Source: Methanomassiliicoccus sp.
GTDB lineage: Archaea; Thermoplasmatota; Thermoplasmata; Methanomassiliicoccales; Methanomassiliicoccaceae
DNA: 64,000 nt
Assembly (NCBI GenBank): GCA_012719175.1
Contig: JAAYAX010000011.1
Coordinates: forward strand, 186,001-250,000
Direction: 5' to 3'
In this document: positions 2,043 to 6,204 of the stretch, piece after piece
How positions within the stretch are numbered: position 1 is the stretch's first letter
Layout: each line of letters begins with the position of its first letter
Notes under the pieces: model-generated
What the model saw: only the letters and a program-made list of their open reading frames with translations
Database searches by the model: none
What the model was told of the DNA's origin: nothing
Made by a program: the position numbers and the translations under genes

Positions 2043-2933
2043 ATGCGATTGGACGCTGATATCACCATCATAGGGATCGGCCCGGCTGGCCTGCAGGCGG
2101 CCATCCACGCCGCGCGGAAAAAGGTCAAGGTCGTGGCGGTAGGGAAGACAGAGAACTCTGCACTGATGAAGGCCGAGGTCGAGAACTATCTTGGCCTGGA
2201 GTCGATGTCCGGGAGGGACATACTTCGTGTGGGCAGAGAACAAGCTATAAGGTTCGGTGCCGAGGTCCTGGAGGAGGACGTCATCAAGCTCACAAAGGAG
2301 CAGGACATCTTCTTGACCGTAACCGACAGTGACCGTGAGATACGGTCTAAGGCAGTAATACTGGCAATGGGCATATCGCGGGCCAAGCTGAACATACCTG
2401 GAGAGAAGGAGCTTCTCGGCAAGGGGGTCAGCTACTGTGCCTCCTGCGATGCTGGTTTCTTCAAGGGGCGTCCGGTGGCGGTAATTGGCGAGGAGAGCGA
2501 GGCCGCGGAGTCCGCCATCCTATTGTCGGAGATAGCCTCCCAGGTCTACTGGGTGCATAGAGAGCTCAAGGCTTCCCAGCACATGCTGGAAAAGGTTAAA
2601 AGGACTAAGGTGGAGATGGTGCCGGGCAAAGCGCTGCGCATCGTCGGCGACCCCACCGTCAACAGCCTGGAGGTGGAGGGCGGAAGGACACTAGAGGTCA
2701 ACGGCGTGTTCATCGCTCTCGGCGCAAAAGGATCGATCGAGCTGGCCCTGGACCTGGGGGTCATGCCAGATCCCAGCGGAATGATAGCCGTGGACGGAGA
2801 CTGTCGCACGGAGATGGAGATGGTCTACGCCTGCGGTGACGTCACGGGAAACCCTTGGCAGCTCGCCCGGGCGGTCGGCCAGGGGTGTGTCGCGGGGGAG
2901 AACGCCGCCAAGGCCATCCGTCAGGGGAAGTGA
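2043..2933 (+). CDS. thioredoxin reductase-like flavoprotein, possibly F420H2-dependent
   Basis: A 296-aa FAD disulfide reductase of the low-molecular-weight thioredoxin reductase type. Visible parts are the FAD Rossmann motif GIGPAGLQ near residue 11, the redox motif CASCD near 132, and the C-terminal FAD motif YACGDVTGN. The second nucleotide-binding domain is abnormal. Where NADPH enzymes carry GGGDSA-type and HRRxxxR motifs, this protein has GEESEAAESA and HRELKAS. The methanogen enzyme DFTR, which takes electrons from reduced coenzyme F420, is also known to lack these motifs, so an electron donor other than NADPH is likely. It follows thioredoxin by 80 bp and is 4 bp from the next regulator gene. 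Confidence 0.85.
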   Translation: MRLDADITIIGIGPAGLQAAIHAARKKVKVVAVGKTENSALMKAEVENYLGLESMSGRDILRVGREQAIRFGAEVLEEDVIKLTKEQDIFLTVTDSDREIRSKAVILAMGISRAKLNIPGEKELLGKGVSYCASCDAGFFKGRPVAVIGEESEAAESAILLSEIASQVYWVHRELKASQHMLEKVKRTKVEMVPGKALRIVGDPTVNSLEVEGGRTLEVNGVFIALGAKGSIELALDLGVMPDPSGMIAVDGDCRTEMEMVYACGDVTGNPWQLARAVGQGCVAGENAAKAIRQGK

Positions 2934-2937
2934 TCCC

Positions 2938-3459
2938 GTGTCCCTGGAGAACGAGCTGGTGGCCGGCATCCTGCGTGAGGAAGGGGGTTTCCGCGAGGCA
3001 TTGAGAAAGGTACTGGAGGAGGACCTGAAGATGAGCATCCATGAGTTCTGCTCCCAGACCGGCCTGTCGCCATCCACGATCTATAAGATCATGCAGGACC
3101 AGCGTGAGCCCAACCTACGGACGGTGAGGGACATCATACGCGCCGTCCGCAGGATGGAGACCAAACCTCACGGCAACTTCATCGCTGTGATCGCCGCCCG
3201 CCCGGTCCTCAGCAGGATCGAGGAGCGGACCGTCAGGCTCAACAACCGCGACATACGCGTCAAGGAGTATCCCGCCAACAGCATGGAGGATGCCATCGTG
3301 GCTGCGGTCATGGCCGAGAAGGACGGGGCGCTGGCCATAGTCTGCGCACCAATCGTGGCGCCGACGATACAGAAGATCCTGACCATCCCGGTATCTATCG
3401 TCATACCGAGGGACAGCATCCTCCACGCCATAGAGGTGGCCGCTCAGAAAACGCTTTAG
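2938..3459 (+). CDS. XRE-family regulator with a PrpR_N-like sensor domain
   Basis: A 173-aa DNA-binding protein. Residues about 20-65 form a helix-turn-helix (MSIHEFCSQTGLSPSTIYKI). The C-terminal 95 residues form an alpha/beta domain containing VKEYPANSMEDAIVAAV, a GALAIVCAP strand and IPVSIVIPRDSILHAI. In pattern this resembles the N-terminal sensor domain of PrpR-type regulators, which bind a small ligand. I chose GTG 2938, which begins 4 bp after the reductase stop and is preceded by GGGGAAG; the frame is open further upstream only inside the reductase gene. The 3' end overlaps the convergent ABC transporter gene by 4 bp, with the two stop codons nested. The ligand and targets are unknown. 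Confidence 0.78.
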   Translation: MSLENELVAGILREEGGFREALRKVLEEDLKMSIHEFCSQTGLSPSTIYKIMQDQREPNLRTVRDIIRAVRRMETKPHGNFIAVIAARPVLSRIEERTVRLNNRDIRVKEYPANSMEDAIVAAVMAEKDGALAIVCAPIVAPTIQKILTIPVSIVIPRDSILHAIEVAAQKTL

Positions 3460-4211
3460 TTCCCCTGCCTTTGCTGCTCCAGCTCGTCCAGGATGGTCTT
3501 CCTGAGGTTGATGAAATCTGGATGGGCACGGTCCCGGGGTCGGGGCAATGAGACCTTATAGATCTCCTTCACCTTGCCTGGCCGCCCGGTCATGACCACG
3601 ATCCGGTCAGAAAGATACACGGCCTCGTCCACCGAGTGCGTGACGAAGATGACCGTCTTCTTGGTCTCTTCCCAGATGCGCAACAGCTCCTTTTGCATGA
3701 GGTTCCTGGTCTGAGCATCCAGCGCACCGAAGGGCTCATCCATGAGGAGGATCTCCGGATTGGACGCCAGCGCCCGAGCGATACCGACACGCTGCTTCAT
3801 CCCTCCAGAGAGCTGGTTGGGGTGGGAGTTCTCGAAACCAGTGAGACCAACAAGGTCGATGAACCTTTTTGAGATCTCGTTCTTTTTCGCATCATCCATC
3901 TTTTGGACCTCTAGTCCGAACTCCACATTCTTCTTCACCGATCGCCAAGGTAACAGGCCGAACTCCTGGAACACCATGCCTCGGTCGGACCCCGGTCCGG
4001 TTATGGGGTTGCCCCTGAGAGTGAGCTCTCCAGAGGTGGGGGACTGCAGCCCTGCAATGATCCTCAGCACTGTGGTCTTGCCGCATCCTGAAGGTCCCAG
4101 GAGGCAGATGAACTCCCCCTCCTTGACATCAAGTTGGAAACCCGAGACCGCAATCATCTCGGTGTCGTCCTTGGGAAAGGTCTTGATCAGGTTCTTGATA
4201 GAGAGGATCAT
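3456..4211 (-). CDS. ABC transporter ATP-binding protein (SsuB/TauB/NrtD type)
   Basis: The ATPase of a nitrate/sulfonate/taurine-type importer, 251 aa from ATG 4211. It has Walker A GPSGCGKTT, a Q-loop with VFQEFGLLPW, signature LSGGMKQR, Walker B EILLMDEPFGALD and the H-loop FVTHSVDEA. I preferred ATG 4211, which forms an ATGA overlap with the permease stop and has GGGG five bases upstream, over ATG 4226, which has no ribosome binding site. It would energise the permease at 4208-5032. The order binding protein, permease, ATPase on the minus strand indicates one operon. The substrate cannot be read from the ATPase. Confidence 0.93.
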   Translation of the reverse strand: MILSIKNLIKTFPKDDTEMIAVSGFQLDVKEGEFICLLGPSGCGKTTVLRIIAGLQSPTSGELTLRGNPITGPGSDRGMVFQEFGLLPWRSVKKNVEFGLEVQKMDDAKKNEISKRFIDLVGLTGFENSHPNQLSGGMKQRVGIARALASNPEILLMDEPFGALDAQTRNLMQKELLRIWEETKKTVIFVTHSVDEAVYLSDRIVVMTGRPGKVKEIYKVSLPRPRDRAHPDFINLRKTILDELEQQRQGN

Positions 4212-5032
4212 TCCATCCCCATCCATTTTTTCACTCGGCCCTCGATTAGCGTGCCAGCTACCAATGTCAGAATTCCGAGGATCGCCACTGCGATCATTCC
4301 AGCGAACATGATATCATATCTTCCCACGGTCTGACCTCCTACGATTATGGCACCCACTCCACCACCTTGGGCTGCCAGCATCTCGGCGGCCACTATACAC
4401 ATCCAGCCGACCCCCAGACCTATCTTCACTCCAGCCATCATGTAGGGGATGGAGGAAGGGAACATCACCTTGCTGAACACCTGCCATCGGTTCGCCCCTT
4501 GGGTCTTGGCAGCATCGATAATAAGGGGATCTACGCTGCGCACTCCGAAGATGACGTTGGATAGGACCGGGAAGAACACACCTATGAATATTGTCAGGAT
4601 AGGTCCCCAGAAGAACCCTGCCGCCAGCAGCAAGAAAGGAACCCATGCTATCGGAGGTATGGGCCGTAGTACCTCCACTGTCGGCCAGGCCAGGGCATTT
4701 GCATACTCAGAATACCCGATTATTAGTCCTAGCGGCACAGCGATTACCATTGCTAAGATGAAACCAAGCAGGAAACGCACTAAGCTCGCATAGATGTTAG
4801 CTAAGAGAGAAACGCGTGTAGCAGGGTCCTGCGTCCATGATTGGACCAATGCCTCCCAGACCTCCGGGGGCGTCGGCAGGAATTGATATCCCTGCCCCTG
4901 GAAGTATAGCGCCAGCATCCACCAGATCGCCAGGAAGATGGGGAGGGAGATGATCGATAGGGATGTTTTAATAAGGTTCTCCCTCGTGAGAAAGCGTTTT
5001 CTTAGGACCCTCATGTCTAACAAAGATGACAT
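4208..5032 (-). CDS. ABC transporter permease (SsuC/TauC type)
   Basis: A 274-aa inner-membrane permease with about six transmembrane segments. It has the BPD_transp_1 coupling loop to the ATPase, visible as IDAAKTQGANRWQVFSKVMFP (EAA-like loop) near residues 170-190. An early segment, FLPTPPEVWEAL, is typical of the SsuC/TauC family. The start ATG 5032 has GGAG eight bases upstream. It overlaps the ATPase gene by 4 bp and lies 50 bp downstream of the binding protein gene. The family imports nitrate, sulfonates, taurine, bicarbonate or thiamine precursors, and nothing in the sequence picks one of these. Confidence 0.92.
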   Translation of the reverse strand: MSSLLDMRVLRKRFLTRENLIKTSLSIISLPIFLAIWWMLALYFQGQGYQFLPTPPEVWEALVQSWTQDPATRVSLLANIYASLVRFLLGFILAMVIAVPLGLIIGYSEYANALAWPTVEVLRPIPPIAWVPFLLLAAGFFWGPILTIFIGVFFPVLSNVIFGVRSVDPLIIDAAKTQGANRWQVFSKVMFPSSIPYMMAGVKIGLGVGWMCIVAAEMLAAQGGGVGAIIVGGQTVGRYDIMFAGMIAVAILGILTLVAGTLIEGRVKKWMGME

Positions 5033-5082: not shown

Positions 5083-6204
5083 TTAGGATTTTACCACTTC
5101 ATATCCATAGCGATCCGCTATCTCTAAAAGAAGCAGATACTGGATGGAGGATATGCCCGGTTCTCCGATCGTCGTACCATCAAGATCATCGATGCTCTTG
5201 ATATCGTTGTTGACGATGAGAGCCGAACCCTCGGTGTTCGCGAGAGCGACTATGGAAACGTCCAGCTTCTGGTTGGCGACGTTGAGAATGGTCGGGGGCG
5301 CTCCCAGATAGCCGACATCCATGTCATTTCCAGCAAAGCCGGTCATGACCGCGCCACCGTTGGCATAACCGCTGCCCGGCATGGCGGAGGGAGCCACGGC
5401 GTTTATTCCGTAGGCGGCGAACACGCTGCGGTCGCCAAGGCCGAGTAGGCTTCCCACCTCTGCGCTCATCGCCACTACCCTGGAGAATTGGTGCAGGTCA
5501 CCGTTAAGGTAGCCGATCCTGACGGTCGTCAGGGGAGAACCGGAAGCCACGGGCATCACCGAGCTGACCTCGGCCAGGAGAGAGGTATCGACCAGTCCAT
5601 TCACGAAGGCATCCACATCGGGAACATCGGATGCCTTGATGAGGCTGGAGGAGACATAGGAGTTGGTGAAGTTCTTGAAGTAATTCTCCTGTGCGGCCGT
5701 CAGGTCGTACTCGATGGTCATATGCTCGAGAGCGGAGGCCACAACGGTGGTGTTGCGGTTACTGAACGACGCTCCCAGGGTGAGCAACAAGCTGTAGTTT
5801 GCCTGACCCTCTGTCGTGTTCTTGTTCGCAACAGTCTCCACTATCCAGTTGTTGGCCTCGATATGGGCCTTGAGGACGGCTAGGGCAGCGTCCCTGTCGG
5901 AGTTGATGAACGTCTGGTCCATGGCAACGACACAGCATGGATGGTCCGGCCATATATCTCCGGACCACAGAAGGGCATGGCCAGTTCCGTTGGTGATGGA
6001 GTCAGAACAGTATGGTTCCCAGCTCACTCCACCATCTATTTGGCCTGATTGTATGTACGCTTGCTGATTAACAGGTGCCACATCGAGATACTTGATCGTC
6101 TTGGTGGTAGCAGTGGGATTCAAAACTCCCGATAGTGCTACACCAGCTACGACAATAATCGCGGCGATGGCGACCACGGCGGCTATGAGGTAACTTTTCT
6201 TCAA
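5083..6204 (-). CDS. circularly permuted NitT/TauT-family substrate-binding protein
   Basis: The 373-aa extracellular binding protein of the importer. After an N-terminal hydrophobic signal/anchor (residues 5-27), residues 35-215 match what is normally the C-terminal half of the family: the hinge-crossing strand KYLDVAP, QSGQIDGGVSWEPYCSD, then SGDIWPDHPCCVVA. Residues 228-373 match the normal N-terminal half: VRIGYLNGDLHQF, DVGYLGAPPTIL, EGSALIV, GTTIGEPGISSIQYLLL. The halves are therefore swapped, with the break just after the IQYLLLLEIADRYGYE helix. It starts at TTG 6204 with AGGTG upstream, and a TATA-like TTTATAAC lies about 35 bp upstream. Many Asn-x-Thr/Ser sites fit a secreted archaeal protein. 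Confidence 0.9.
   Translation of the reverse strand: MKKSYLIAAVVAIAAIIVVAGVALSGVLNPTATTKTIKYLDVAPVNQQAYIQSGQIDGGVSWEPYCSDSITNGTGHALLWSGDIWPDHPCCVVAMDQTFINSDRDAALAVLKAHIEANNWIVETVANKNTTEGQANYSLLLTLGASFSNRNTTVVASALEHMTIEYDLTAAQENYFKNFTNSYVSSSLIKASDVPDVDAFVNGLVDTSLLAEVSSVMPVASGSPLTTVRIGYLNGDLHQFSRVVAMSAEVGSLLGLGDRSVFAAYGINAVAPSAMPGSGYANGGAVMTGFAGNDMDVGYLGAPPTILNVANQKLDVSIVALANTEGSALIVNNDIKSIDDLDGTTIGEPGISSIQYLLLLEIADRYGYEVVKS

Follow-up and report, generated by a model that had tools for sequence, protein, structure and literature searches.

The gene at 5083-6204(-) of the window (the whole stretch of 64,000 nucleotides analysed) appears from its sequence, with a probability of about 0.9, to encode the membrane-tethered component of a working ABC importer of the NMT1_2/SsuA type, a substrate-binding protein (SBP) whose chain is circularly permuted. 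Its swapped segment order, the conservation of this order, the operon, the synteny and the purifying selection are seen directly in the sequences compared. The ORF codes for 373 aa, starts with TTG and is uninterrupted. A hydrophobic signal anchor (residues 1-29, 6118-6204(-)), recognised from the sequence and present at the same position in homologues, occupies the new N-terminus. Segment C (residues 36-211, 5572-6099(-)) is the ancestral C-terminal part, now placed first, and is delimited by matches to SsuA_fam 131-221 and SaoX 140-310 and by segment HMMs; it includes an HPCC motif (residues 88-91, 5932-5943(-)) that is kept in the SBP clade in all three segment orders described below. A new linker (residues 212-227, 5524-5571(-)) connects the old C-terminus to the old N-terminus and is under relaxed constraint (dN/dS 0.4-0.5). 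The ancestral N-terminal part, defined by profile matches and segment HMMs, begins with segment N1 (residues 228-314, 5263-5523(-)) and ends with segment N2 (residues 315-373, 5086-5262(-)), which is now the C-terminus, the break lying right after it. The operon continues with an ABC permease of the BPD_transp_1 family, TauC/SaoP-like (4208-5032(-)), found downstream of the SBP whichever of the three orders it has, and an ABC ATPase (3456-4226(-)) whose best NCBIfam match is SaoA (284.7 bits, the cut-off of 360 not being reached). Convergent with the ATPase gene is a candidate regulator, an HTH protein whose C-terminal part shows a weak PrpR_N-like match (2836-3459(+)), which stays beside the operon even in families f8, f20 and f24 despite their differing arrangement. 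Rfam revealed no riboswitch in 15 operon loci, two tRNAs being the only matches.

Along the family profiles, the two halves of the protein come in swapped and not in ordinary order, as the first-pass annotation had proposed. In Pfam, the native SBP matches NMT1_2 (PF13379) at 87.3 bits (gathering cut-off 24.7), through residues 29-128 only and at the end of the model. After an in-silico rotation placing residues 225-373 before residues 36-224, the score is 90.8 bits against the same cut-off, and the profile, whose order along the native protein is swapped, aligns as a single stretch only in this rotated form. NCBIfam behaves likewise: SsuA_fam 131-221 falls on residues 36-126 and TauA 34-119 on residues 280-362 of the native protein. 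Rotation changes the SsuA_fam match (TIGR01728) from 76.5 bits in two pieces to 89.4 bits in one stretch (37-221), the SaoX match (NF040735) from 53.5 to 67.7 bits, also in one stretch (39-310), and the TauA match (TIGR01729) from 34.1 to 44.4 bits, all of them below the curated cut-offs (163.5, 300 and 304.25, respectively). As the scores fall far short of the thresholds for SsuA_fam and TauA, family membership does not reveal the substrate. Solved chains give the same picture, with TauA (6ssy) 37-120 on residues 280-362 and NrtA (2g29) 189-272 on residues 40-123. A profile of 17 native permuted homologues aligns to 6ssy in reversed order (271-354 on chain 35-119, 38-121 on chain 129-212), whereas a profile of five ordinary relatives aligns in one piece (chain 30-212). 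The homologue of genome G005 is naturally in ordinary order, matching SsuA_fam 1-222 at 144 bits; within its single 371-aa frame, residues 207-371 of the window SBP match upstream and residues 38-215 downstream, the two parts matching at 40% and 46% over their whole length. On the TauA chain, the break corresponds to residues ~120-128, where the SIQYLLL helix leads over to the following strand. We take this position to be a turn in lobe 2 of the SBP fold, a better placement than the hinge proper suggested earlier. An AlphaFold2 model of the SBP with two relatives at 92-93% identity (three near-identical rows) reached a pLDDT of 32.9, too low for a structural comparison.

The swapped order is old and occurs widely. 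Each of the 15 genomes in the family harbors a homologue, 14 of these being in swapped order, including a divergent one in G008 (39%), and only G005 has the ordinary order. Among the 14, the SBP gene of G002 (L056 2587-3769(-)) is split over two frames at an unread base (N), probably through an assembly error. Within the Methanomassiliicoccales, a match of some order is present in 131 of 147 genomes. The swapped order also occurs in f8, f20 and f24 of the class, in G455, G473, G619 and G635 elsewhere in the phylum, in single-contig genomes such as G208 and G170, and in two Methanomassiliicoccales MAGs with 92-93% identity to the window SBP. Comparison with these two MAG relatives gives a dN/dS of 0.07 overall, 0.00 in N1 and 0.4-0.5 in the linker. 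No relative was found in the viral contigs searched, and the plasmids searched gave half matches to bacterial SBPs only. In its own genome (G000) the gene is the sole match to itself; another NMT1_2 protein of this genome (L149, G000:C13:34978-35613) has the ordinary order (profile 2-231).

When 3767 ORFs from 147 loci were scanned with HMMs of the segments C, N1 and N2, three arrangements emerged: the ordinary order N1-N2-C, permutation 1 (C-N1-N2, the window gene) and permutation 2 (N2-C-N1). The search for other archaeal proteins with the window's arrangement, advised in the first-pass annotation, was thus rewarded with 54 distinct C-N1-N2 ORFs, next to 25 N2-C-N1 and nine N1-N2-C. All 25 ORFs with permutation 2 belong to family f5, and their break lies after G(S/A)PPAIL and before the strand V.IVAQVN.EGSA. 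Five of the nine ordinary ORFs (G005, G135, G136, G484 and G221) are close relatives with the HxCC motif, and the other four are distant SBPs without it. The motif is found in 53/56 permutation-1, 31/31 permutation-2 and 5/5 close ordinary units; the SBP structure 3un6 has CC at the same place. Fused tandems in one ORF exist for both rotations, C-N1-N2 occurring twice in G144 and N2-C-N1 twice in G077, G080 and G082, and these extant fusions in one reading frame lend indirect support to the tandem-duplication route put forward earlier. Remnants of lost halves were not found beside the genes, apart from a fragment of an additional permutation-2 N1 segment where a contig of G107 ends (L125 4679-4864). 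Permutation-1 SBP domains with long C-terminal extensions and without HPCC are encoded in G126 (L042 4668-7436(-)) and G127 (L043 1-2700(-)); by eye, the extensions contain fibronectin-III-like repeats in L042 and are PKD/beta-helix-like in L043, and no permease or ATPase gene was found beside either domain. In G309, a cytosolic-looking protein (L121 4594-5637(+)) combines an N-terminal winged-helix-like part with an NMT1-like part carrying WEPYFSD and FPCCC, and is perhaps a regulator derived from such an SBP.

These data leave little room for explanations other than a natural permutation in a working importer. That misassembly or a chance fusion of neighbouring genes makes an ordinary protein look permuted is vanishingly improbable and in effect excluded, given the swapped order in 14 of 15 family genomes, across the order and elsewhere in the phylum, upstream of orthologous permease and ATPase genes, and a dN/dS of 0.07. 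The window's genome consists of 16 contigs, and we found no point in favour of this explanation; the same order, collinear over ~360 residues, recurs in numerous independent genomes, both in the family and in the order, among them the single-contig G208 and G170 and the two MAGs at 92-93%. That the permuted gene is decaying or has lost its function is also highly improbable. HPCC is indeed lost in the first copy of the G144 fused tandem and in the long non-operon copies of G126 and G127, but the window gene has a dN/dS of 0.07, no stop, a retained anchor and operon, and no second match in the genome, which agrees with the earlier description of an unbroken, functional-looking gene with the anchor at its new N-terminus and the permease and ATPase following. 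A chimera whose two parts come from two different SBPs is very unlikely too: the half trees are not fully alike, permutation 2 forming a clade in the N-half tree and not in the C-half tree, but both parts match the same ordinary protein, that of G005, over their full length (40% and 46%), and SaoX 39-310 aligns to the rotated protein without interruption. Profiles, more than 50 collinear homologues, synteny and purifying selection thus bear out the proposed natural circular permutation of an SsuA/NMT1-type SBP. Beyond this proposal, the order proves to be ancient and broadly distributed, a second rotation exists, and some relatives appear to have reverted.

The genomic context is shared among the orders. 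In nearly all cases the SBP gene, whichever its order, is directly followed by the genes for the permease (identity of 42-67% within the order, leaving aside the nearest species) and the ATPase (52-77%). The block PRC-Trx-TrxR-HTH-[ATPase-permease-SBP]-wHTH-Sm-Elp3 is common to the window and to the ordinary genes of G005, G135 and G136, whose genera otherwise have permutation 1. It is also present from PRC to Elp3 in several permutation-1 genomes, including G134 from the genus of G135, and largely in the permutation-2 genome G104; in f8 and f24 the operon is inverted inside it. The same block and the orthologous permease and ATPase indicate that the order switches are changes in place and do not reflect unrelated paralogues.

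In a tree of normalised SBP sequences (43 rows), the permutation-2 proteins form a single clade (99/98) to which the permutation-1 protein of G022 is sister (100/99), suggesting that permutation 2 most likely derives from permutation 1. The ordinary proteins of G005, G135 and G136 group weakly (87/39) and sit, together with the permuted genes of the order, in a clade that also holds permutation-1 proteins of f8 and f24 (98/97), while G484 and G221 branch apart from them. AU tests on this tree reject a single clade of all five close ordinary genes (p=7e-5) as well as a position of G005, G135 and G136 outside the clade of f8 and the permuted genes of the order (p=0.004). An independent permease+ATPase tree rejects the same two hypotheses (p=0.001 and p=0.010), but does not reject a sister relationship between the three and the remaining genes of the order (p=0.25). 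These p-values are somewhat optimistic, since the groups were named after the first tree had been seen. The N-half tree agrees with that of the whole SBP, and the C-half tree has lower resolution and splits permutation 2. As outgroups, distant ordinary SBPs gave long branches that were not trusted; rooting with them was dropped, and the root is accordingly uncertain.

The ordinary genes of G005, G135 and G136 are probably reversions from permutation 1. Whereas G484 and G221 have a short turn leading from the SIQ(H/Y) helix into the following strand, as in typical ordinary family members, these three carry ~9 extra residues exactly at the permutation-1 break (VKQSGTPGDANTVYF in G135 and VKLDGTDGDDDTVFY in G136, versus the canonical GIDRADVTI of G484 and GINPSDVDI of G221). 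The extra residues are VKQSGT in G135 and VKLDGT in G136, after which comes a stretch that ends in DANTVYF or DDDTVFY; they resemble the permutation-1 C-terminal tail, which is VKLxGT-like and ends 16 of 24 permutation-1 proteins of f3 and f6, joined to a post-anchor start such as DDDTIYW. The extra loop of G005 does not match the VKLxGT motif, so the scar is indicated there only by its length and position. In model coordinates, the junction at the permutation-1 break measures 14-18 in permutation 2, 14 in G005, G135 and G136, and 3-10 in other ordinary proteins; most simply, both sets of long junctions would come from fused permutation-1 tandems. Alternatively, G005, G135 and G136 would keep the ancestral order and permutation 1 would have arisen several times independently at the same break, without any reversion. 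We consider this unlikely, although a reversion saves only about one step on the trees, outgroup rooting is unreliable, and the permease+ATPase tree is compatible with the three being sister to all other genes of the order (p=0.25). It demands repeated permutation at one site, and the three genes carry extra residues at that very site, which in two of the genes resemble permutation-1 tails, in contrast to the short turn of G484 and G221; moreover, the AU tests reject all close ordinary genes as one group, and the genera concerned otherwise have permutation 1 at the same locus. It is likely that a permutation was undone by a second one at the same locus, leaving the fused permuted termini as a scar, and that, with f5, one orthologous gene passed through all three rotations.

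From these comparisons we infer the fold, function and evolutionary route of the permuted SBP. In SBPs of this family, two lobes close on the ligand, and the protein docks on the permease. The permuted protein should still fold as the usual two-lobed clamp and pass its ligand to the permease encoded just downstream. The old termini would be joined by the short linker and the new ones would lie in the turn after the SIQ(H/Y)LLL helix, so that the anchor would now sit on another part of the fold, in permutation 1 before segment C instead of before N1. An ordinary gene may have been duplicated in tandem, fused and trimmed to give permutation 1; in further rounds, fused permutation-1 tandems would have produced permutation 2 (N2-C-N1) in f5 and returned the genes of G005, G135 and G136 to the ordinary order, with the scar of ~9 residues at the former break. 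Given the conserved HxCC motif and the neighbouring thioredoxin genes, a ligand related to thiols or metals would at most be worth testing.

The window SBP resembles SBPs of the SsuA/TauA/NrtA type (NMT1_2, PF13379) in its Pfam match over the cut-off, its motifs and its TauC-like permease and ATPase, and differs from them in its rotated segment order and in scores far under the SsuA_fam and TauA cut-offs. Rearrangements of segment order during SBP evolution are reportedly known as domain dislocation, exemplified by the order of OpuAC versus ProX/ChoX and said to have been described by Fukami-Kobayashi in 1999. Domain dislocation is ancient and lies between classes, whereas the changes seen here are young enough to be traced at a single syntenic locus. 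SaoX, SaoP and SaoA, which belong to a Sec-assisted organometallic system (NF040735 and others; PMC13188914), are among the best NCBIfam matches for the SBP, permease and ATPase of the window, all under the equivalog cut-offs, and, unlike in the Sao system, no selenoprotein neighbours of the window operon were noticed.

Natural permutation of an SBP is already known from MglB-2 (Tp0684) of Treponema pallidum, a membrane-tethered ABC SBP of 'cluster Bc' whose permutation was established by crystallography and for which tethering was suggested as a reason for it (PMC4990184); by analogy, the same reason could be guessed for the window family. Both are naturally permuted and membrane-tethered, the window family being known here from sequence alone. 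However, MglB-2 has a sugar-binding cluster B fold with one reported rotation, whereas the window family belongs to another SBP class, with two rotations, fused tandems and an apparent reversion; the Pfam search on the native SBP returned NMT1_2 only and showed no homology to the periplasmic sugar-binding (cluster B) family. Permutation by duplication is likewise known, from DNA methyltransferases and saposin/swaposin, and predicts fused tandem intermediates (PMC3320104). Such tandems exist in the window SBP family, which differs from these cases in uniting the putative intermediates with all three rotations. We found no earlier report of permutation in this SBP class or order in the open-licence literature. 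The family also carries a warning that profile searches show permuted SBPs as half matches, and suggests that the membrane tether of an SBP can shift between parts of the fold without loss of the transporter. Natural permutations are usually known as two end states only, whereas here one orthologous gene at one locus displays the ordinary order, two rotations, fused tandems like the predicted intermediates and a probable reversion, so that the duplication model and its reversibility become directly testable. What is new with respect to the known systems is this unusually complete series at a single locus, with three rotations, fused tandems and probable reversion.
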